A stretch of DNA of 64,000 bases from Marinococcus sp. PL1-022 (lineage in GTDB: Bacteria > Bacillota > Bacilli > Bacillales > Marinococcaceae): assembly GCF_033845285.1 (NCBI RefSeq), contig NZ_JAWXCX010000001.1:1565495-1629494 (forward strand), read 5' to 3'. A model generated the notes under the pieces. The model did no database searches, was not told where the DNA came from, and saw only the letters and a program-made list of their open reading frames with translations. The first letter of the stretch is position 1; each line of letters opens with the position of its first letter. Shown here one piece after another: positions 19,334 through 35,426 of this stretch. The translations under genes and the position numbers were made by a program.

Positions 19334-19462
19334 GCCTTGATCGTGGCTCCTTTCCCTTGAGACGAATAAAAATGTTCTTTGCAAATGGCGGGTTTCGTGT
19401 TAATTTAGTACAATGTTTGTAGTAATTATACATAAAATTGTATGAATATCGAGGTGAAGAAA

Positions 19463-25800: not shown

Positions 25801-27174
25801 TTACATTACTGTTTCTCCGAGTATAAATAACACAAGGCTCAGCACGACGGCTGCGCTTAGAATAAATGCTGTATTTTTCCTGATGACCTCAATGGTGGTC
25901 GTCCCCATCAAATGGGCTGTCATAAGTATTGCTCCTGTAAACGGAGACACCTGGACGCCGAGCATCCAGGACATGAGCAGCAGCACAGCCATAAATGGAG
26001 CCCCCACCCCGAAAATTTCCGGCGAAAGGGCCCCTCCGAGGCCAGTGACAATGATAACGGGATGAATACCCACAGCAGATAGTCCCATTACGATAGCAAC
26101 CACCCAGGCAATCAGCAGAATCATATAGCCCTGGGACAGAAAGCTGATGGCTTCAGAAAGCCACACCCCGGCATCACTGCTCCGAAGCGCAACACTGAAA
26201 AATCCGGCCGTCACAAAAATACCAATTTCGTTGTACAGTCGTTCAAACGAACCGCCTACGTGTTTCCACGTTGACTGTGCAAACGAGGCGGCCTGTTTTC
26301 GTGCAATGGCCCACACCCACGGATACAAAAGAGCAAGCACAGAAACAATCGTCAGCATATTGTAGGGCAGCAGCGCTTCAAGCAAAAAAGAAGCAGCAAG
26401 CAAAATACCTAAAAAGAGTATAAACGTGCGCATCGAAGAGACGGGCGGATTAGCTTCTTTTTCCTTCTCCGGAACCGTCCAGCTGTCATCGGCGAACGCC
26501 GACGAACGGAAAAATACAACGACCAGACCCGTTAATACCGCAGCCATCACGATCCCGTACGGACCAACCTCTCCCCAGCTCAAATCATAGATGCTTAAAA
26601 TCAGGGCCATGTTTACAAAGTACGGCGACCAGAGCATGCACGAGCCAAATCCTCTGAGCACCGTTAACGCCATTCTTTTTTGTTCAAACGGCGGAAAGCT
26701 TTCCTTGGCTATGCCGTACACAAGCGGCATAGAGCCGAGATTAAGAATAGCACCGATGCTTGCCGTCACTCCGTAGCCAAGCCGATGCGGCGGCACTCCC
26801 CTTTTATCGTTTTGACGTTCAAGATACTGCTGAAACGCATGCAGATGTCCGGCTTCTGACATGTACGTCCCAATCAGCGGTACCGTCAAAAAGAGGGCCA
26901 GCAGCGGCAGATTTTCCCCGAAGCTTGTCCATACTGTCTGCCAGGAGACCCCGTAGGTCCAGAACAGAGCAATACCGACAGCGATCAGCACGTAAACCAC
27001 CCGCCGGTTCAGGGGCGGCATCACAGGCATTGATGCCACAAGCAGCACACCGGCAATCAGGCTGTACGCGTATTCGACAAATGGAACGCTTAAAAGCACT
27101 TCTAAAAAATAGCAAAATACAGCCGCAAAAGCAGCAGCTCCAAGTGTTGGTTTTATGTAGGCCTGCCGGTTCAT
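25801..27174 (-). CDS. Multi-spanning permease, ion-transporter-like
   Basis: About 457 residues with roughly twelve hydrophobic segments. The ATG at 27174 (MNRQAYIKPTLG) is preferred because AGAGGA precedes it; earlier in-frame starts lie too close to or upstream of this site. Two re-entrant-loop-like stretches (LGSMPLVYGIAKESFPPFEQKR and VQVSPFTGAILMTAHLMG) recall the ion transporter (DctM/CitMHS/ArsB-type) superfamily, but I cannot name the family with confidence. It lies directly downstream of the ectoine-like operon but behind that operon's terminator, so it has its own promoter. Uptake of that operon's substrate is possible but unproven. Confidence 0.6.
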   Translation of the reverse strand: MNRQAYIKPTLGAAAFAAVFCYFLEVLLSVPFVEYAYSLIAGVLLVASMPVMPPLNRRVVYVLIAVGIALFWTYGVSWQTVWTSFGENLPLLALFLTVPLIGTYMSEAGHLHAFQQYLERQNDKRGVPPHRLGYGVTASIGAILNLGSMPLVYGIAKESFPPFEQKRMALTVLRGFGSCMLWSPYFVNMALILSIYDLSWGEVGPYGIVMAAVLTGLVVVFFRSSAFADDSWTVPEKEKEANPPVSSMRTFILFLGILLAASFLLEALLPYNMLTIVSVLALLYPWVWAIARKQAASFAQSTWKHVGGSFERLYNEIGIFVTAGFFSVALRSSDAGVWLSEAISFLSQGYMILLIAWVVAIVMGLSAVGIHPVIIVTGLGGALSPEIFGVGAPFMAVLLLMSWMLGVQVSPFTGAILMTAHLMGTTTIEVIRKNTAFILSAAVVLSLVLFILGETVM

Positions 27175-27265
27175 GATCATTCCTCTTTTTCGTCCAGTCA
27201 TCATTGCAAACACCTTTATGCTATCACTATCCGGAAAAAATAGCCAATACCTGCATTCCCATCCA

Positions 27266-27301
27266 TAAAAAAGCGGACTTCCAAAAAAAGAAGTCCGCTG
27301 C
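27266..27301 (-). terminator. Terminator of the ectoine-catabolism-like operon
   Basis: Perfect 10-bp stem AGCGGACTTC / GAAGTCCGCT with an A-rich loop, followed by TTTTTTA on the minus strand. Confidence 0.9.
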
Positions 27302-27308
27302 CTGTTTC

Positions 27309-28532
27309 TTATTTGTAATGGGCGTTCATCCGGTTTTCCGCAAAGGCGTCACCGAGCACCCCGGGTTCTTTGATATACATATCCCTTGGCACATGGCTGA
27401 GCAGTTCACATCCGTTTTCCGTGATGCGGATCGATTCGGTAATTTCCACACCGTGATCATCGAGCCAGATGCCAGGCATCAGGTGAAACGTCATATTCGG
27501 CTGCAAAATAGTGTGATCGCCCTTCCGGAAGCTGACTGTATGCTCGCCCCAGTCCGGCGGATAGCTGAGCCCGATGGAGTAGCCAAGACGGGATTCCTTA
27601 AAATACCCGCGTCTTGCGATTGTCCGACTCCACACACTTTCCACCTCTTCAGCTGTCATCCCAGGCTTAATTGCATCCATCGTCGTTTCGATGCCTTCAA
27701 CGACCGTTTCCGACAGATCATACATTTTTTCAGGGGCCTGGCCGATCGCCATCGTTCTTGCCATCGGAGTGTGATAGCGCATATACGCTCCGGCAATTTC
27801 GATCGTCAAAAAGTCCCCGTAGTTATATCTGCGATCCGTCCATGTCAAATGCGGAGTGGCTGTGTTTTCGTTTGCGGGAATCATCGGCACAATCGAAGTA
27901 TAATCGCCGCCAAATTCCTTTGTCCCGAGAATCTGGGCATTGGTGATAGCCGCAGCCACTTCATTTTCACGAACGCCGACATCCACCGTATCAAAGCCAG
28001 CCTGCATGGCATTTTCCAGTATCCGGCCAGCGCGGTACATGCATTCGATTTCCGCTTCCGATTTTATCAGGCGGACCCAGTTAACGAGTGTGCTGAAATT
28101 ACGGAATTCGGCATTCGGGAGACCAGCCTGGATTCGTTCGTAGCACATCGCGGTAAAATAAAATGCATCCATCTCCAGTCCGATTTTCCGGTTGCCCTGG
28201 CCTATTTCGGTCAGGATGTTTGCTGCAAAATCCATCGGGTGCTTGATTGTCGACTGCACAAATTCATCAGGGTACGGAATGATATGGTCGTCGTCGAGCC
28301 AGGTGGTGACCGCGGCACTGTGGGCATCCATTTCTCTCCCGATCCATAACGGCTGATCCTCATCAATCATCACAATCACCATTTGATGCACATAAAATGA
28401 CCATGCATTATATCCTGTTAAATAATACATATTGGATGGATTGGAGACCAATAGCACTTCAATACCATATTCCATCATTTTCATTTTTGTCTGATTCATC
28501 CTCATCAGGTACTCATCTTTTTCAAATAACAT
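27309..28532 (-). CDS. doeA: Ectoine hydrolase-like protein (DoeA/EutD, M24 fold)
   Basis: Pita-bread fold protein (407 aa) resembling DoeA/EutD, which opens the ectoine ring to N-acetyl-2,4-diaminobutyrate. The N-terminal creatinase-like domain has SNPSNMYYLTGYNAWSFYV and WIGREMDAH. The catalytic domain has GGDYTSIVP, GYSIGLSYPPDWGEHT and FHLMPGIW. Canonical M24 metal ligands are mostly replaced: IEIAG where VDxG is usual, HTPMARTM where DxTRT is usual, and LMPG where xEPG is usual. This argues against an Xaa-Pro peptidase and fits the non-metallo DoeA branch. It is the last gene of the operon, 35 bases after the aldehyde dehydrogenase, with a strong AAAAGGGGGG ribosome site. Confidence 0.75.
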   Translation of the reverse strand: MLFEKDEYLMRMNQTKMKMMEYGIEVLLVSNPSNMYYLTGYNAWSFYVHQMVIVMIDEDQPLWIGREMDAHSAAVTTWLDDDHIIPYPDEFVQSTIKHPMDFAANILTEIGQGNRKIGLEMDAFYFTAMCYERIQAGLPNAEFRNFSTLVNWVRLIKSEAEIECMYRAGRILENAMQAGFDTVDVGVRENEVAAAITNAQILGTKEFGGDYTSIVPMIPANENTATPHLTWTDRRYNYGDFLTIEIAGAYMRYHTPMARTMAIGQAPEKMYDLSETVVEGIETTMDAIKPGMTAEEVESVWSRTIARRGYFKESRLGYSIGLSYPPDWGEHTVSFRKGDHTILQPNMTFHLMPGIWLDDHGVEITESIRITENGCELLSHVPRDMYIKEPGVLGDAFAENRMNAHYK

Positions 28533-28567
28533 GAGCTGATCCCCCCTTTTATCCCGTTTACGTTTAA

Positions 28568-30007
28568 TTATTCATCAATGGTGAAGCATACGAGCCGTTT
28601 TTCTGACATTTCTTCAATTGCAAACGCTACGCCTTCCCGGCCGATGCCCGAATGCTTCACGCCGCCAAACGGCATGGCATCGATCCGGAAATCGCTGCTG
28701 TCGTTTACCATAACACCGCCAACGTGAAGCTTGCGCACTGCCTTCAGCGCTAAATTAATATCATTCGTGTAAATACCGGCCTGCAGTCCGAAAGGTACGC
28801 TGTTCGAGCGTGTGACTGCTTCATCAAACGTTGCTACAGAAGCAAGTATCACTACCGGCCCGAACACTTCTTCTTTTACAATTGTTAAGTGCTCCGGCAC
28901 ATTCGATAGAACCGTCGGCTCGATAAAGGCCCCGTGCCGTTTTCCGCCGGCAAGCACTTTGGCTCCCGCCTCTACTGCTTCTTCAATCCAGCTTTCAATC
29001 CGTTTGGCTTCTTTTTCGTTGATGACCGGTCCAATATCTGAATCCTTGTCCATCTTTCTGCCGGCGCGCACCTGTTTGGCTTTATCCACAAACGATGCTT
29101 CAAACGCATCATAAATTTCTTCATGAGCGTACACCCGCTGAACACTCAGGCAGTTCTGGCCGGCCGCTCCAAACGCTCCGTCCACGCCGGATTGCGCTGC
29201 CTTTTCAATGTCTGTATCCTTCCATACGATAAACGGGGAATTCGAGCCGAGCTCCATGGAAAGCTTTTTCAGCCCCGCTTTGTGGGCAATGCTTTTTCCT
29301 GTTTCATAGCCACCGGTAAAGCTGATCATCTGTACGTCCTCTGCTTCAACCAGAATGTCGCCAATGTCACGGCCTCTTCCGGTGATCACTGTCATCACCT
29401 TTTTCGGAAGACCGGCAGCAATAAATGCTTCAGCCAGCTTTAATGCGCTGAGCGGTGTTTCTGTTGCCGGCTTCACGATAACAGCGTTACCAGCAGCAAT
29501 TGCCGGTGCTACCTTATGGGCCACCAGGTTCAACGGATCGTTAAACGGCGTGATGGCTGCTACCACACCCACCGGAAAATGATAGTAATAGCCCATCCGG
29601 TTCGTATTACCTTCCATTTGGTCGAAATTAATCGATTCCCCGGAAAGACGGCGTGCCTCCTCTGCCCCAAGTCGTATCGTTTCAGCAGTTCTCCGTGCTT
29701 CGCCGGAAGCTTCCGCTATCGTTTTGCTTCCTTCAAGCGCAATGATTTCTGCAAACTCCTCTGCATGATCGAGCACATAATCCGCCACTTTATTTAATAT
29801 ATCCATGCGCTCCCGGATACTCAGCGCTTCGGCGATTTCTTTTCCTTCAACAGCGATCCGTACAGCTTCGCGTGCATCGTCGCTGCTAGCCATTGGGACT
29901 GTACTGATAACAGACTGGTCTTCGGGATTGACGACGTCCAGTGTCTGATCACGGCCGACCCATTCTCCGCCGAGCAGCATCTTTTGCTCTGTGATTTTTG
30001 TTGTCAT
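28568..30007 (-). CDS. NAD(P)-dependent aldehyde dehydrogenase (candidate DoeC, aspartate-semialdehyde oxidising)
   Basis: 479-residue member of the aldehyde dehydrogenase superfamily. It has the proton-relay Asn region (TPFNDPLN), cofactor glycine motif (SFTGGYETGK), catalytic Glu (MELGSNSP) and nucleophile Cys in GAAGQNC (about 278). All are intact, so an active oxidising enzyme is expected. In ectoine catabolism DoeC converts aspartate semialdehyde to aspartate, and the operon context suggests that role here. Succinate-semialdehyde or lactaldehyde oxidation cannot be excluded by sequence alone. It lies 12 bases after the homoserine dehydrogenase gene. Confidence 0.85.
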   Translation of the reverse strand: MTTKITEQKMLLGGEWVGRDQTLDVVNPEDQSVISTVPMASSDDAREAVRIAVEGKEIAEALSIRERMDILNKVADYVLDHAEEFAEIIALEGSKTIAEASGEARRTAETIRLGAEEARRLSGESINFDQMEGNTNRMGYYYHFPVGVVAAITPFNDPLNLVAHKVAPAIAAGNAVIVKPATETPLSALKLAEAFIAAGLPKKVMTVITGRGRDIGDILVEAEDVQMISFTGGYETGKSIAHKAGLKKLSMELGSNSPFIVWKDTDIEKAAQSGVDGAFGAAGQNCLSVQRVYAHEEIYDAFEASFVDKAKQVRAGRKMDKDSDIGPVINEKEAKRIESWIEEAVEAGAKVLAGGKRHGAFIEPTVLSNVPEHLTIVKEEVFGPVVILASVATFDEAVTRSNSVPFGLQAGIYTNDINLALKAVRKLHVGGVMVNDSSDFRIDAMPFGGVKHSGIGREGVAFAIEEMSEKRLVCFTIDE

Positions 30008-30019
30008 ATTATCCCGCCT

Positions 30020-31060
30020 TTATATAGTATTTCGGTCCATGTTAATCAAATCGATTAACAAGGCAAATCCTGTTTCCGGCACCCCGGCCCCGGCACCCAT
30101 CAGCGTAATCGGGCCACTCAGGTCGCATTCATAGGTAACCGCGTTTACCGCACCGCCCACGTTGGCGAGAGCATCGTCTTCGGAAAGCAGCTCCGGTTTC
30201 ACAGACCCTTTGATTGTGCCGTTGACGTTTTCAACGCGCCCGATCAGCTTCCAATGCTTGTTTTCATTTTTTGCCTGCTGCATATCTTCGGCAGAAAGAG
30301 ACGTAATTCCCTGGCGCTCCACATCTTCTTTTTTCAAATCAGCTCCCATGACGACATTGGCAAGAATGACTACTTTATACAATACATCATAGCCTTCGAC
30401 ATCGCTCGTGGGATCCGCTTCCGCGTATCCGCGGGATTGGGCTTCTTTTAAAGCTTCGCTGTATCCCATGCCCTGCTCCATCTGAGTGAGCATGTAATTT
30501 GTTGTGCCGTTCATAATCCCTTTAATGGACGTAATCCGGTTTCCGGAAAGACTTGTAAGCGGCATCCGGAGCGCCGGTGTTCCGCTCATGACCGTTCCTT
30601 CGAATAAAAACCGTACACCGTTCTCTTCTGCCAGTGCCTGAAGCTCTTTATAGGCAAGTGCTACGGGACCTTTATTCGTAAGAACGGCGTTTTTGCCGGC
30701 CTTAAATGCCGTTTTGCAGTGATCAATCGCCGGCTGTCCGGTCTCCACGTTGGTGAACGTAATTTCGATTACAGTATCAGCGTTTGACTGGGTAATGGTT
30801 TCGATGCTGTCCCAGCCGCGCACGAGCCCTTCGGTATCAGGATAGTTTTCGACTGTCCCATCTTTTTTCAGGCAGTCAAGCACTTTCTGCATGTCAAGGC
30901 CTTCCGGGTGGTGAAGGGAGCCTTTGTACAAATCGGAAACGGAAACGACCAAAAAGTCGGAACCGAAGGTATCCTTCAGCCAGTCTCCCCGTTCCAGCAG
31001 TATATCTGCAAGTCCGCGGCCCACTCCGCCAAACCCGATAAAATCTAATTTATGCGGCAT
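30020..31060 (-). CDS. Homoserine dehydrogenase, short form without ACT domain
   Basis: 346-residue enzyme that interconverts aspartate semialdehyde and homoserine with NAD(P)H. Features are the Rossmann motif GFGGVGRGLAD, VLTNKGPVALAY, the substrate loop GYAEADPTSDVEGYD and the catalytic DVLYK. The C-terminal ACT regulatory domain of Bacillus Hom is absent, so threonine feedback control is not expected. Placement in the middle of the operon, away from thrB and thrC, suggests a catabolic or branch role acting on aspartate semialdehyde. It has a good GGGAGG site and 12-16-base spacing to both neighbours. Confidence 0.88.
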   Translation of the reverse strand: MPHKLDFIGFGGVGRGLADILLERGDWLKDTFGSDFLVVSVSDLYKGSLHHPEGLDMQKVLDCLKKDGTVENYPDTEGLVRGWDSIETITQSNADTVIEITFTNVETGQPAIDHCKTAFKAGKNAVLTNKGPVALAYKELQALAEENGVRFLFEGTVMSGTPALRMPLTSLSGNRITSIKGIMNGTTNYMLTQMEQGMGYSEALKEAQSRGYAEADPTSDVEGYDVLYKVVILANVVMGADLKKEDVERQGITSLSAEDMQQAKNENKHWKLIGRVENVNGTIKGSVKPELLSEDDALANVGGAVNAVTYECDLSGPITLMGAGAGVPETGFALLIDLINMDRNTI

Positions 31061-31076
31061 ATTTTTTCCTCCCAGT

Positions 31077-32291
31077 CTAATCTGTCTTGTGCTTTGTCAT
31101 ATAGTGTACAGCTGCTCCTGCAAGCAGGGAAGCGCCAATTGGTAAAATGGTTTCTTCAATATCAAACTGGGGCATGTGCAGCCCGCTGTCTGCACGATCA
31201 GGGTAGCCTGCGCCGAGAAACATCATGCAGGACGGCACCTGACGGGCCATGTAGCTGAAATCTTCTCCGCCCATGCCATAGGATTCTTCGTGGATCATCG
31301 TTTCCGGGTACAGTTCCTTTAGCACGGACCGGTAAGCCTTAACCGCTACAGGACTATTAACGAGTGCCGGCTCACCTTCTGCAATCGTTACCTCCTGGGA
31401 GGCGTTCATCGATTCTGCTATACGGAAGGCCTGCTGAAGCTCCTCACGAAGATGCTTGCGGGTGTCATCCGAATAGCTTCGCATCGTGCCGCGGATACGG
31501 ACTTCGTCCGGGATAACGTTCGTCGAAGCTCCTGCCTTTAATTCACCGATACTCACAACCGCCGGTTCAAGCGGAGACGTCCGCCGTGAAACGATCCCCT
31601 GCATCGCCTGCATCACAAACGTGCTGATCCACACCGGATCCGTGGCGAGATGAGGATACGCCCCGTGGCCGCCGCTTGCGCGAATGACCCCTTCAAACGT
31701 ATCAATGCCTGCCATGGACGGGCCTTCCTGCAGTCTTACATGACCCGGCGTAAACTCAGGGTCCATGTGCAGCGCAAAGGCTGCTTCAGCTCCTTCAAGC
31801 CACCCATGGCTGATCAAATACGGGCTGCCGGTGCTTCCGTACTCATCCGTATCTTCTTCTGCCGGCTGAAAAATGAACCGGATGGTTCCGTTCAAATGCT
31901 CCTGCTGGTTGTGAAGCACAACGCAGGCACCAAGCAGCATAGCAGTGTGGGCATCGTGCCCGCACGCGTGCATTTTACCCTCGTAGGTGGAAGCATAATC
32001 ACAGCTGTTTTCTTCCTGGATCGGAAGGGCATCAATATCAGCGCGCAGAATGACGAGAGGGCCGTCACCGGCCCCGAGCTCTGCGATCACGGCCGTGTCG
32101 AGACCCGTTTCTTCTCTCCCGCTGTATACTGTTAGATGCTGAAGACCGGCAAGCGCCTGTTTAATAAACGCTGACGTTTCATACTCTTCAAAGCTCAGCT
32201 CCGGGCGGCGATGCAGGCTGCGCCTCCATTCGACCAGCTGCTCTCTGATCGCTTCTGCTTCTTCTTTAATCGTTTTTGTCACTATAGTCAT
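31077..32291 (-). CDS. M20-family amidohydrolase (candidate N-acetyl-diaminobutyrate deacetylase)
   Basis: 404-residue metal-dependent amidohydrolase of the M20D (hippurate hydrolase/N-acyl-amino-acid deacylase) type. Metal ligands appear intact: ADIDALP, the HACGHDAHTAMLLGA motif, FQPAEEDTDEYG and a C-terminal YGMGGEDFSYM. The dimerisation (lid) domain lies about 190-300. In this context the natural inference is deacylation of the N-acetyl-2,4-diaminobutyrate made by the DoeA-like protein. Characterised DoeB/EutE deacetylases belong to the unrelated AstE/AspA family, so this would be a non-orthologous replacement. The ribosome site is AAAGGACGG. It lies 15 bases after the PLP enzyme gene. 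Confidence 0.85.
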   Translation of the reverse strand: MTIVTKTIKEEAEAIREQLVEWRRSLHRRPELSFEEYETSAFIKQALAGLQHLTVYSGREETGLDTAVIAELGAGDGPLVILRADIDALPIQEENSCDYASTYEGKMHACGHDAHTAMLLGACVVLHNQQEHLNGTIRFIFQPAEEDTDEYGSTGSPYLISHGWLEGAEAAFALHMDPEFTPGHVRLQEGPSMAGIDTFEGVIRASGGHGAYPHLATDPVWISTFVMQAMQGIVSRRTSPLEPAVVSIGELKAGASTNVIPDEVRIRGTMRSYSDDTRKHLREELQQAFRIAESMNASQEVTIAEGEPALVNSPVAVKAYRSVLKELYPETMIHEESYGMGGEDFSYMARQVPSCMMFLGAGYPDRADSGLHMPQFDIEETILPIGASLLAGAAVHYMTKHKTD

Positions 32292-32306
32292 CGTTCAAAC
32301 CGTCCT

Positions 32307-33512
32307 TTAGTTTTGCACGCTTGCGGTTTTTGGCAGCGAGGCCAGCGCCTGTTCCAAATCGTTAATGAGATCCTCTGTATCTTCAATTCCGACCGAGTAG
32401 CGCACAAGGCTTTCCGGAATACCGAGCGCTGCCCGCTCTTCCGGCGTATTTTCCACGTGGCTTGTCGTTCTTGCCGGCCCTACCGTTGTTTCCACCGATC
32501 CCAGGTTTGCTGCCCGGTTGGCATACTCGAGTTTTGGCAGGAACTGGCGAACAGCATCCATTCCACCTTTTAACGAGAAGCTGAACATGCCGCCAAACTG
32601 GTTCATCTGTTTTGCTGCAATATCATGACCAGGGTGTGTTTTGAGCCCCGGATAGAATACCTGATCCACCTGCTCATGATTTTGCAGGTGTTCAGCGATT
32701 TTCATCGCGGATTCACACTGCTGGCGTACCCGGAGATGAAGCGTCTTCATGCCCCGGATCATCAGGTAGGCAGCCATTGGATCCATCGTCGCTCCATTAA
32801 TTTCGCGGTAATGAAATATTTTTTCAACCAGATCTTTCCGGCCGCATACCGCTCCGCCAAGGGCATCTGCGTGTCCTCCCAGAAATTTCGTCGCACTGTG
32901 AATAACTAGGTCCACGCCAAATTCGAGCGGGTTCTGGTTGATTGGAGTAGCAAATGTGTTATCAACGAACACAAGCGCGCCCACTTCCTTCGCTACCCTG
33001 GTCATTCGTTCAATGTCAGTAATTTTTACCGTTGGATTGGTTGGTGTTTCCAGATATAAAATATCGCAGCCTTTACGAACTTCTGTCTCAATTTCTTCAT
33101 GATTGCCTGTTTCGCATAGTGACACTTCGATATCCATATGCGGCAGAAATTCAGTAAAGATTTTATTTGTACCACCGTACGTGTCCTTCATCGATACCAC
33201 CCGGTCGCCCGGACGGAGGAACGTAGCCAGAGAGTTGCTGATTGCAGCCATGCCGGTTGAAAAGCTTGTAGCCGCTTCAGCGTCTTCCAGAATTCTGATT
33301 TTTTCTTCGAACGATTGCAGGGTAGGATTAGTGTTCCGACCATAGATATGCCCTTCCTTTTTTCCTGTTGCCACGTCATACCAATGGTCTAAATCATCGT
33401 AAGTATAGGCAACACTGTGGACTACCGGGACCTGGGTAGCTCCAAATGCCCGGTATTCTTTTTCTCCTGCCCATACTGCTTTTGTCGAACGATTAATGTG
33501 TGTGTTTGTCAT
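32307..33512 (-). CDS. Cys/Met-metabolism PLP enzyme (cystathionine gamma-synthase/lyase type)
   Basis: About 401-residue fold-type I PLP enzyme. PLP-binding features are FSTGMAAIS, DTYGGTNKIF, the Asp in VDNTFATP and the Schiff-base lysine in SATKFLGGHAD. The substrate-binding end is GSVETTVGPARTTSH. The YGGT motif resembles cystathionine gamma-synthase/lyase and O-acylhomoserine sulfhydrylase, not methionine gamma-lyase, which has Cys there. It is the first gene of the operon. No aminotransferase gene is present, so this enzyme may act on diaminobutyrate or a homoserine derivative; that is inference. The ATG at 33512 is chosen over an in-frame TTG at 33524 that abuts the ribosome site. Confidence 0.85.
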   Translation of the reverse strand: MTNTHINRSTKAVWAGEKEYRAFGATQVPVVHSVAYTYDDLDHWYDVATGKKEGHIYGRNTNPTLQSFEEKIRILEDAEAATSFSTGMAAISNSLATFLRPGDRVVSMKDTYGGTNKIFTEFLPHMDIEVSLCETGNHEEIETEVRKGCDILYLETPTNPTVKITDIERMTRVAKEVGALVFVDNTFATPINQNPLEFGVDLVIHSATKFLGGHADALGGAVCGRKDLVEKIFHYREINGATMDPMAAYLMIRGMKTLHLRVRQQCESAMKIAEHLQNHEQVDQVFYPGLKTHPGHDIAAKQMNQFGGMFSFSLKGGMDAVRQFLPKLEYANRAANLGSVETTVGPARTTSHVENTPEERAALGIPESLVRYSVGIEDTEDLINDLEQALASLPKTASVQN

Positions 33513-33583
33513 GATTGAACACAACCTTCCCTGTTACTATTTTTTCTCTATCTTCAGTGTATAGGTTATCTGTTCAAATTCCA

Positions 33584-33630
33584 TTCACACAATTGTATGA
33601 AGTTTCGCACTTTCTTTTGCACAATGTGCA
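33584..33630. promoter_or_regulatory. Candidate operator palindromes in the divergent control region
   Basis: Two inverted repeats lie between the divergent operon and pucR-like gene: TTCACACAATTGTATGAA (33584-33601, one mismatched pair) and TGCACAATGTGCA (33618-33630, perfect arms). They are positioned to serve a regulator acting on either promoter. No factor is identified by sequence. Confidence 0.45.
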
Positions 33631-33716
33631 TGACACATTATCTTCCATGCAAATATGGTAAAATAATAATCAGAAGATGAATTTACGTTTTTGGTATTGT
33701 AAAGGGGTGTCTGGCG

Positions 33717-35426
33717 ATGATTTCTATGCAACAAGTATTACAGCTTCCAATTATGAACACGGCTCTTCCACTGACATCAAATGCCGATTCAAGCTCTATT
33801 ACCGTCTACTGGGCATCGGTTATAGAAACACCTGTGGAAGATTTCGTCCGTCCGAGAGAATTAATTTTAAGCTCGGGGATCGGCTGTCAAAATGAAAGGG
33901 ATCTGCTTGAATTTATTGAAGAGCTGATGGAGGCGGGTGCGAGCGGTTTGATTTTATCTGTCGGCCACTACATCTCGTCAATTCCTGACAACGTGATCGA
34001 CTTTTGTGAAACAAAGGCATTTCCGCTCGTGGAAATCCCATGGGAAATCCGCTTTTCGGACATTACAGAAGCCATTTCTGAAGCCCTTCATAAAAGCTCG
34101 CTGCGCTCGATCGACGTTTCGAATAAAATCCGTACAGATCTTCTCGAAATTATTCTTGAAGGCAAGGGCATGGAGGCAATTGCCTCTTATGTATACAAGC
34201 AGCTGCATATACCGATGCTTGTAGTGGATAAGCGGGGACGCCTGAAGACCCAGACAGACCATTCGTCGGACCTCGCCGGATGGTGGAACCAGTATTTAAG
34301 CCAGGGAGGAAATCCGCTTTTTCCTCCTTTTCAGCAGACAGATCCTGAAAAGAGCCTGCCGGCGAACATGGAATGGATGGACACTGACGCCGGGACCCTG
34401 CTGCGCTTAACCGTGCAGACGACCCAGGACATTCAGGGCTATATGATCCTGCAGTGGCCCCCTCATAAAGAAAAGCACGATGTTTTTGAAGAATACACCC
34501 TGCTTCTGCTTGAACACTCGGTCACCACTTCCGCTCTCTGCTTTTTGCATGACCAGACGGCGATTGAAACCGAAATGCGCCTGAAGGATGATTTTGTCTG
34601 GAGTCTGGCAAAGGATAATTATGAATCCCGGGACCAGGCGCTTTCGCGCGGCAAATCATTAGGCTATAACCTTGAGCTTCCTTATATCTGCTTTGTCGCC
34701 AAACCCGAAAATGTTGAACGGGTCTTTCACGCAGAATCTCCGCCGCTTTCCTATGACCACTGGCTCGAACAGATTGGGTATATGTTTGAAGAGGAAGTCT
34801 CCCACGCAAGCCGTTATTTAAAAGCACGTGTGATGAGCACGTTCCAAAAATCGGAGCTGATCGTATATCTGGAAATGCATCCAACCATGATGTATGACAC
34901 AGTATATTATTTCGCTGAGACGGTGCAGTACCGCCTCGAACAAAAAATCCCTCATCTTGTCATTTCCTGGGGAGTAAGCAAGACGGCCGCACCGTGGGAG
35001 TTTGTGACAAGCTTTTCAGAAGCCTCTTCTGCTCTTGATGCCGGGCGCAGACAGCGGGGATTCGGCTACATCCATACGTATGAAGATACACGCTTTGACC
35101 GGGCTCTCATGTCTCTGGCTAAAAATGAAGAAATCCGCCAGATTGCTGAAGCTACAGTTGCCCCCCTTCATCATTATTCTGTCGAACGCGGCATTGATTT
35201 AATGAAAACGGTTCGCACCTATAATGAGTGCAAGGGCAATGTCAGCCAGACATCCCGGGAGCTAAATCTCCACCGTCAGTCCTTGTTATACCGTTTGAAA
35301 AAAATTGAATCACTCACAAGCTGTGATCTGAATAATTCCGATGATCTGTTTTTAATCGAGCTTTCCATTCGGCTGCACACAGCCGGGGCTCTGTTTGTCA
35401 CCGATGAACGGACTCCACACGTATAA
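33717..35426 (+). CDS. PucR-family transcriptional regulator
   Basis: 569-residue regulator with an N-terminal PucR-type sensor domain (about 1-125, with VRPRELILSSG and GLILSVGHYISSIP). A central GGDEF-like/GAF-like region follows, and a C-terminal PucR helix-turn-helix (RTYNECKGNVSQTSRELNLHRQSLLYRLKK split over about 505-535). PucR-type regulators generally activate catabolic operons when the substrate or an intermediate binds. It is divergent from the ectoine-like operon with 204 bases between starts, so it is the obvious local regulator. Characterised ectoine operons use a GntR/MocR-type EnuR or an Lrp-like DoeX instead. The ribosome site AAAGGGGTG is present. Confidence 0.9.
   Translation: MISMQQVLQLPIMNTALPLTSNADSSSITVYWASVIETPVEDFVRPRELILSSGIGCQNERDLLEFIEELMEAGASGLILSVGHYISSIPDNVIDFCETKAFPLVEIPWEIRFSDITEAISEALHKSSLRSIDVSNKIRTDLLEIILEGKGMEAIASYVYKQLHIPMLVVDKRGRLKTQTDHSSDLAGWWNQYLSQGGNPLFPPFQQTDPEKSLPANMEWMDTDAGTLLRLTVQTTQDIQGYMILQWPPHKEKHDVFEEYTLLLLEHSVTTSALCFLHDQTAIETEMRLKDDFVWSLAKDNYESRDQALSRGKSLGYNLELPYICFVAKPENVERVFHAESPPLSYDHWLEQIGYMFEEEVSHASRYLKARVMSTFQKSELIVYLEMHPTMMYDTVYYFAETVQYRLEQKIPHLVISWGVSKTAAPWEFVTSFSEASSALDAGRRQRGFGYIHTYEDTRFDRALMSLAKNEEIRQIAEATVAPLHHYSVERGIDLMKTVRTYNECKGNVSQTSRELNLHRQSLLYRLKKIESLTSCDLNNSDDLFLIELSIRLHTAGALFVTDERTPHV

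Follow-up and report, generated by a model that had tools for sequence, protein, structure and literature searches.

Ectoine is a widespread nutrient in the sea and in soil, and an industrial product. In the textbook account of its catabolism, a transaminase (DoeD/Atf) converts diaminobutyrate to aspartate semialdehyde, from which DoeC/Ssd makes aspartate (PMC8739950, PMC7192451). A paper of April 2026 (PMC13188858) reports putative clusters of Bacillota/Bacillales, pucR-eutBCD-atf and abgB-thrA-adh. It calls them tentative, holds Gram-positive ectoine breakdown to be tentative until tested, and in its accessible text gives thrA a reducing activity and no pathway step. Here we describe a 64,000-nucleotide stretch of the genome of Marinococcus sp. 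PL1-022 (the window), and in it a five-gene operon on the minus strand (33524-27309) with a divergent gene for a PucR-type regulator on the plus strand. We abbreviate the Cys/Met-metabolism pyridoxal phosphate enzyme as PLP enzyme (its gene as PLP), homoserine dehydrogenase as HSD and aldehyde dehydrogenase as ALDH. The genes are transcribed in the order PLP-M20-HSD-ALDH-M24, with intergenic gaps of 15, 16, 12 and 35 bp:

32307..33524, minus strand: Cys/Met-metabolism PLP enzyme, proposed to deaminate diaminobutyrate at the gamma position with homoserine as product (NF006097/PRK08249 family, 741 bits)
31077..32291, minus strand: M20 amidohydrolase, proposed N-acetyl-diaminobutyrate deacetylase (TIGR01891, 349 bits)
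30020..31060, minus strand: HSD, proposed to convert homoserine to aspartate semialdehyde (NF004912, 432.9 bits)
28568..30007, minus strand: ALDH, proposed to convert aspartate semialdehyde to aspartate, the DoeC/Ssd role (PF00171, 530 bits)
27309..28532, minus strand: M24-fold protein, putative DoeA/EutD-like ectoine hydrolase (DoeA structure matches, TIGR02993 at 458.5 bits, motifs)
33717..35426, plus strand: divergent PucR-family regulator (PF07905, GGDEF_2, HTH_30)

We think it reasonably probable that this operon takes ectoine to aspartate by way of homoserine, with the PLP enzyme and the HSD replacing the transaminase, under the PucR-type regulator, which would control the operon. M24 would open the ectoine ring to give N-acetyl-2,4-diaminobutyrate, which M20 would deacetylate. 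The PLP enzyme, a member of the cystathionine-gamma-synthase/methionine-gamma-lyase superfamily, would let water displace the gamma-amino group of 2,4-diaminobutyrate, yielding homoserine and ammonia; the HSD would oxidise homoserine to aspartate semialdehyde, and the ALDH would convert this to aspartate. Each catalytic step, chiefly that from diaminobutyrate to homoserine, and the inducer of PucR are predictions from sequence. The preliminary description of this DNA, a reading of the letters alone, missed that PLP enzyme and HSD may jointly stand in for the transaminase, to us the most telling point.

Compared with the doe cluster of Halomonas (DoeA-DoeB-DoeC-DoeD) and the eut cluster of Ruegeria (EutD-EutE-Ssd-Atf), the operon is alike in its predicted M24-fold ectoine hydrolase, its ALDH and its expected end product, aspartate. 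It differs in three places: M20 instead of a deacetylase of the EutE/DoeB type, PLP enzyme and HSD instead of a class III diaminobutyrate transaminase, which is absent from the operon, and PucR instead of EnuR or the AsnC/Lrp-type DoeX. The preliminary description had given all six genes at these coordinates and with these families, and had read the deacetylase and the regulator as replaced; the domain matches agree on each count. It had also taken the gene set to be undescribed, which does not hold, since PMC13188858 reports it for other Bacillales. The Marinococcus operon is a compact member of that group, without linked eutB and eutC and with PucR divergent; the main text of the paper has a gene named atf. 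We take this 'atf' to be the PLP enzyme from the gene order in the text of PMC13188858, whose figure was not visible to us; the words cystathionine and Marinococcus are absent from its main text. We found no paper in the open-licence literature that proposes a homoserine route for ectoine, and such a role for the PLP enzyme and the HSD is the addition of this analysis to the printed gene set.

The M24 protein and its neighbourhoods

The best solved relatives of M24 were DoeA structures (6twk/6yo9 and 6twj, E 1e-110), followed by a prolidase at 8e-32. In an alignment with rhizobial and Klebsiella DoeA, M24 keeps the motifs WSFYVHQ, GGDY, PHLTW, E(I/L)AG-Y-RYH-P and YPPDWGE, and its active-site motifs, EIAG-RYH-PMART and YPPDWGE, are of the DoeA type. 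Two paralogues in the same genome (L130 and L131) have the metal-prolidase patterns, DFGA/DLGA with DITRT/DMTRT plus GHG-G...HE; we take the D-G...D-TRT and GHG-G...HE positions to be metal ligands, and the residues common to these prolidase-type paralogues are altered in M24. Among 60 sampled records, plasmid entries annotated doeA were 43-46% identical to M24 and entries labelled Xaa-Pro peptidase at most 36%, except one at 44% (H58). A 97-row tree, from which sequences with stops and those more than 93% identical were excluded, places the window protein among the M24 proteins of Bacilli clusters and separates it from proteobacterial DoeA. On the gap between structure matches, the identity ranking and the motif comparison, we rejected M24 as a prolidase or creatinase. 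The preliminary description had named clustering with true prolidases as the result that would speak against it; structure match, identities and motifs all point elsewhere, the tree having been built without prolidase rows. Ring opening of ectoine by M24 is thus a well-supported prediction. A plasmid of the archaeon Haladaptatus (L097) carries an M24 protein 51% identical to that of the window, with BCCT carriers near it and no other pathway genes in the stretch.

The gene set is no chance grouping and extends well beyond one genome. In Priestia megaterium a plasmid carries the cluster. The PLP enzyme was found at 97-100% identity in 5/5 Marinococcus genomes compared (the source genome included), and the complete operon in four further Marinococcus records (L015-L018). 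We also fetched 80 loci with the PLP protein and judged gene presence within the fetched stretches (9-21 kb). With identity floors of 40-60%, M24 was present in 79 of these, M20, HSD and ALDH each in 74, and the full complement of four in 72. A search of the whole stretch at E 1e-12 matched PucR in 74 loci, EutC in 43, EutB in 40, BCCT carriers in 23 and ProP in 13, and EhuB, EhuC, EhuD or the Klebsiella DoeB in none. The EutC of L033 and the EutB of L074 pass the PRK08291 and PRK07476 cut-offs, respectively. In clusters of other genomes, EhuABCD lies beside the gene set (L121, L124-L127, L158-L160, L186, L187 and L206). Across 398 Bacilli genomes, M24 occurred in 36 (E 1e-90) and the PLP enzyme in 39 (E 1e-130), with both in 34, where about 3.5 would be expected if the two were independent (kinship uncorrected). 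The two genes were at most 10 kb apart in all 34 (coordinates read by eye). A PdxS relative occurs in or near the cluster in 4/80 loci, at L096 6558-7442 and in L126, as if PLP supply were co-regulated.

Among the neighbourhoods, the most telling evidence for ectoine is a plasmid cluster of Klebsiella variicola JNQH579. Here eutC-like (ornithine-cyclodeaminase-family) and eutB-like (PLP-dependent) genes, just below the PRK08291 and PRK07476 cut-offs, are followed by ehuADCB, an EnuR-like gene, doeA, doeB and then a PLP enzyme 61% identical to ours. The PLP gene was found at about 61% identity in 28 Klebsiella/Pluralibacter plasmid records (H6-H33). The plasmid, pJNQH579-1 (L095, L142), is an IncFIB plasmid from human sputum, and IS5-family transposase genes flank its ectoine cluster on both sides. 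In Paracoccus yeei, ssd and a gene for a class III aminotransferase fill the positions after doeB; in the Rhizobium and Sinorhizobium clusters examined, neither gene does so.

Taken with the DoeA match, the company of EutB, EutC, Ehu and DoeB supports the preliminary proposal of ectoine breakdown by an M24 hydrolase, and the operon very probably breaks down ectoine. Marinococcus itself carries ectC. Its EutC-like (L135 5654-6637, minus strand) and EutB-like (L136 5531-6490, plus strand) genes lie at a distance of about 100 kb from each other, neither of them linked to the operon; they score over the PRK08291 and PRK07476 cut-offs and under TIGR02992 and TIGR02991. The same operon is present in Sinobaca qinghaiensis (L026), and a Sinobaca sp. 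is said both to make and to consume ectoine (PMC10203224, citing Chen et al. 2022).

The place of the transaminase

The clearest view of the PLP enzyme and HSD came from one family of Bacilli (f18, the family of genome G379). M24 was found in 46/261 of its genomes at 49 places, all of which were examined, as 48 loci; L128, found through its PLP gene and with M24 broken by a frame change, was left out. Thirty-four of the 48 loci have PLP, 12 have a class III aminotransferase gene and two have neither. None has both, a mutual exclusion that is directly observed. HSD follows PLP, being present in 33/34 PLP loci and 0/14 of the others, and M20 and ALDH are present in 14/14 non-PLP loci. Since PLP and HSD come and go jointly at the place of the transaminase, we read them as its joint substitute; the pattern suggests that PLP enzyme and HSD together replace the diaminobutyrate transaminase (DoeD/Atf). 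The swap aminotransferase (L120) shares 36% identity with the class III enzyme encoded behind ssd in Paracoccus yeei, and 38% with an unlinked aminotransferase of Marinococcus (L154, see below), so that its kinship to Atf is plausible. In the two clusters with neither type (L204 and L205), M24, EutC, M20, ALDH and Ehu genes are present, with an aspartase gene near.

The PLP enzyme scores 741 bits against NF006097 (cystathionine gamma-synthase family protein PRK08249; cut-off 600), and its Klebsiella relative 653 bits. Its closest solved relatives are methionine gamma-lyases, from which it differs in scoring 397.6 bits against TIGR01328 (methionine gamma-lyase), where the cut-off is 549.7, and in the cysteine that follows the YG motif of the best methionine gamma-lyase. 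This is glycine in the PLP enzyme, and alanine in 1/66 rows and in L118. Residues Y61, R63, Y116, D188, K213 and R375 are invariant in 66/66 M24-linked Bacilli rows, the Klebsiella enzyme and three rows from loci without M24. R240-E241 is invariant too. The PLP lysine and the carboxylate-binding arginine are thus kept, if these positions mean what they do in methionine gamma-lyase, as we presume.

The HSD is well placed in its family (NF004912/PRK06270, 432.9 bits against a cut-off of 373), and no ACT domain was found among its Pfam matches. It is one of three in the genome; the third HSD-like gene (L138 5320-6336, plus strand) scores under the PRK06270 and PRK06813 cut-offs. The ALDH shares 35% identity with Ssd from the Paracoccus yeei ectoine cluster, and M20 is over the TIGR01891 cut-off.

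PLP, HSD and ALDH also occur apart from M24. Among the five Bacilli genomes with PLP and without M24, four (L114, L115, L117 and L118) have the three genes together with neither M24 nor M20. The fifth (L116, G257) is a 6.7 kb contig holding M20, PLP, HSD, ALDH and aspartase; the locus stops at the contig end and was not counted as stand-alone. In the PLP tree (rows more than 90% identical left out), three non-redundant stand-alone rows form one clade (100/98) within a clade that holds eight M24-linked rows (100/99). That the three genes stay together without the ectoine hydrolase is best explained if they encode consecutive steps through homoserine to aspartate.

Next to the stand-alone cassettes are genes for amino acid permeases, in three cases of the S-methylmethionine type, and for regulators of the GntR type. 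The neighbours in L114 include such a regulator gene, a gene like that of S-methylmethionine permease, scoring 664 bits where the cut-off is 716, and one for homocysteine S-methyltransferase. L118 has an S-methylmethionine-permease-like gene beside the cassette, and L117 has a PRK10836 amino acid permease, presumably lysine-type, with asparaginase and aspartase genes near. The stand-alone cassette perhaps serves the catabolism of some other gamma-substituted amino acid.

Competing routes and substrates

A number of findings weigh against a path from ectoine through homoserine. M24 stays below the curated cut-off of 613 bits for TIGR02993 (ectoine hydrolase DoeA/EutD), and for this reason we name it ectoine-hydrolase-like, on a diverged Bacilli branch. 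M20 scores 258.1 bits against NF038260 (the M20 deacetylase DoeB2), where the cut-off is 550; its 325 bits against the CpsA model are above the DoeB2 score, yet below that model's cut-off of 500. Ammonium leaves the gamma position poorly, and we know of no characterised precedent for diaminobutyrate in such a PLP reaction. Six of the 80 PLP loci lack both HSD and ALDH, as does the Klebsiella cluster. In L204 and L205, which belong to one genus, PLP and HSD are jointly absent with no visible replacement, and among the 12 swap loci there are three (L201-L203) whose contigs are shorter than 10 kb. Because the aminotransferase type forms a single M24 clade nested among the PLP types (10 rows, SH-aLRT 99), the swap is one replacement event and not many. 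Finally, since the stand-alone cassettes adjoin amino acid permease genes, the PLP family may accept other substrates.

If the operon serves ectoine, its PLP enzyme might instead eliminate at the gamma position of diaminobutyrate to give 2-oxobutyrate and two ammonia, with a side role for the HSD. Its kinship to methionine gamma-lyases would suit this, as would the clusters that have PLP without HSD (Klebsiella, L037, L046, L065, L085, L093, L124 and L188). It would leave the HSD unexplained despite its near-perfect association with PLP in f18, and the ALDH without a substrate, and we regard it as unlikely. Alternatively, an unlinked aminotransferase could carry out the transamination, with HSD and PLP enzyme diverting aspartate semialdehyde through homoserine towards methionine or cystathionine. 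The Marinococcus genome has 10 class III aminotransferases, of which the one beside ectC is probably EctB. The enzyme L154 shares 38% identity with the swap aminotransferase and 35% with the Paracoccus enzyme; since it resembles the swap enzyme about as closely as the Paracoccus enzyme does, a transaminase route in Marinococcus keeps some probability. The accessible text of PMC13188858 likewise has thrA acting in the reducing direction. Against this, the class III gene enters the cluster where PLP and HSD are gone, no homoserine acyltransferase is among the five operon genes, and PLP, HSD and ALDH move as a unit, in L117 near aspartase. We hold such a diversion to be slightly less likely still.

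The substrate itself could also be another compound (canavanine, S-methylmethionine or a different N-acyl diamino acid), the likeness to ectoine genes being family resemblance only. Besides the M24 score and the S-methylmethionine-permease-like genes of the stand-alone cassettes, once with a homocysteine methyltransferase gene, the M24 protein labelled Xaa-Pro peptidase on a Rhizobium indigoferae plasmid (H58; L099 7983-9161) speaks for this. Its cluster holds an aspartate-aminotransferase-family gene, an ABC transporter and a second M24 gene, with no Eut/Ehu annotation; because a protein 44% identical to ours sits outside an Eut/Ehu cluster, M24 likeness alone is no proof of ectoine. H58 is perhaps a hydrolase for another substrate, and it departs from several of the DoeA motifs that M24 keeps. 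The canavanine pathway reportedly continues with homoserine dehydrogenase, semialdehyde dehydrogenase and aspartase, and to our knowledge it has no ectoine hydrolase. In Pseudomonas canavaninivorans and Rhizobium it runs through a PLP gamma-lyase that yields homoserine, as we propose here, with canavanine as the substrate and hydroxyguanidine leaving (PMC10018355); in Rhizobium, HSD has also been proposed to supply aspartate semialdehyde from homoserine (PMC10228743). No guanidino-compound gene turned up among the scanned neighbours, in which no systematic search was aimed at one, and canavanine was rejected as the substrate for want of supporting genes there, the sequence of the canavanine lyase itself not having been compared. 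With the DoeA-type residues of M24 and the EutB/EutC/Ehu/DoeB company also against it, a substrate other than ectoine is in our view improbable.

Returning to the conversion of ectoine to aspartate through homoserine, we put a fuller version of it only a little above an even chance. In this version, Bacilli have a transaminase-free ectoine route with a new PLP-dependent 2,4-diaminobutyrate gamma-deaminase and a dedicated oxidative HSD; the cassette is reused as a general module from gamma-substituted amino acids to aspartate, and the PLP enzyme also serves the canonical cluster of Klebsiella. If the homoserine path is right, two genes left without a role in the single printed account that we found would have one, a new PLP reaction would be predicted, and the 'atf' of the Gram-positive clusters would probably be no aminotransferase. 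It would also name deletion targets for improving Bacilli that make ectoine. The irreversible removal of diaminobutyrate, with loss of ammonia, would moreover fit a cell whose ectoine synthesis draws on that pool through a reversible transaminase.

Regulation and flanking features

Three further features lie between and beside the genes:

33584..33601, no strand assigned: candidate operator TTCATACAATTGTGTGAA, an imperfect palindrome in its minus-strand reading (block aligned in 19 divergent-type loci)
27272..27299, minus strand: terminator-like hairpin at the end of the operon (stem of 11 pairs with a T run behind it)
25801..27213, minus strand: hydrophobic putative transporter downstream of M24 (no Pfam/NCBIfam match; relatives in 13/80 loci)

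The intergenic block common to the 19 divergent-type loci reads TTCATACAATTGTGTGAA in the window. Its exact word TTCATACAA was found in 15/19 of these loci and in 10/12 aminotransferase-type loci, sets that overlap in species and are uncorrected for kinship; it is missing from 43/80 of the PLP loci. The element is a candidate PucR site common to both pathway types. A second exact copy of TTCATACAA lies outside the operon, on the reverse strand at window position 19438. A scan for promoters returned 10, where shuffled sequence gave 13.0 expected, and a tRNA scan of the window returned none. The TTG listed as the start codon of PLP (33524) is directly 3' of a ribosome-site-like stretch, GGAAGG; from the sequence, we judge the ATG at 33512 the likelier start. 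Since the terminator-like hairpin lies between them, we ruled out the hydrophobic gene as part of the operon transcript. Its transporter-like product is a possible ectoine carrier of this sub-group, or an uptake partner.

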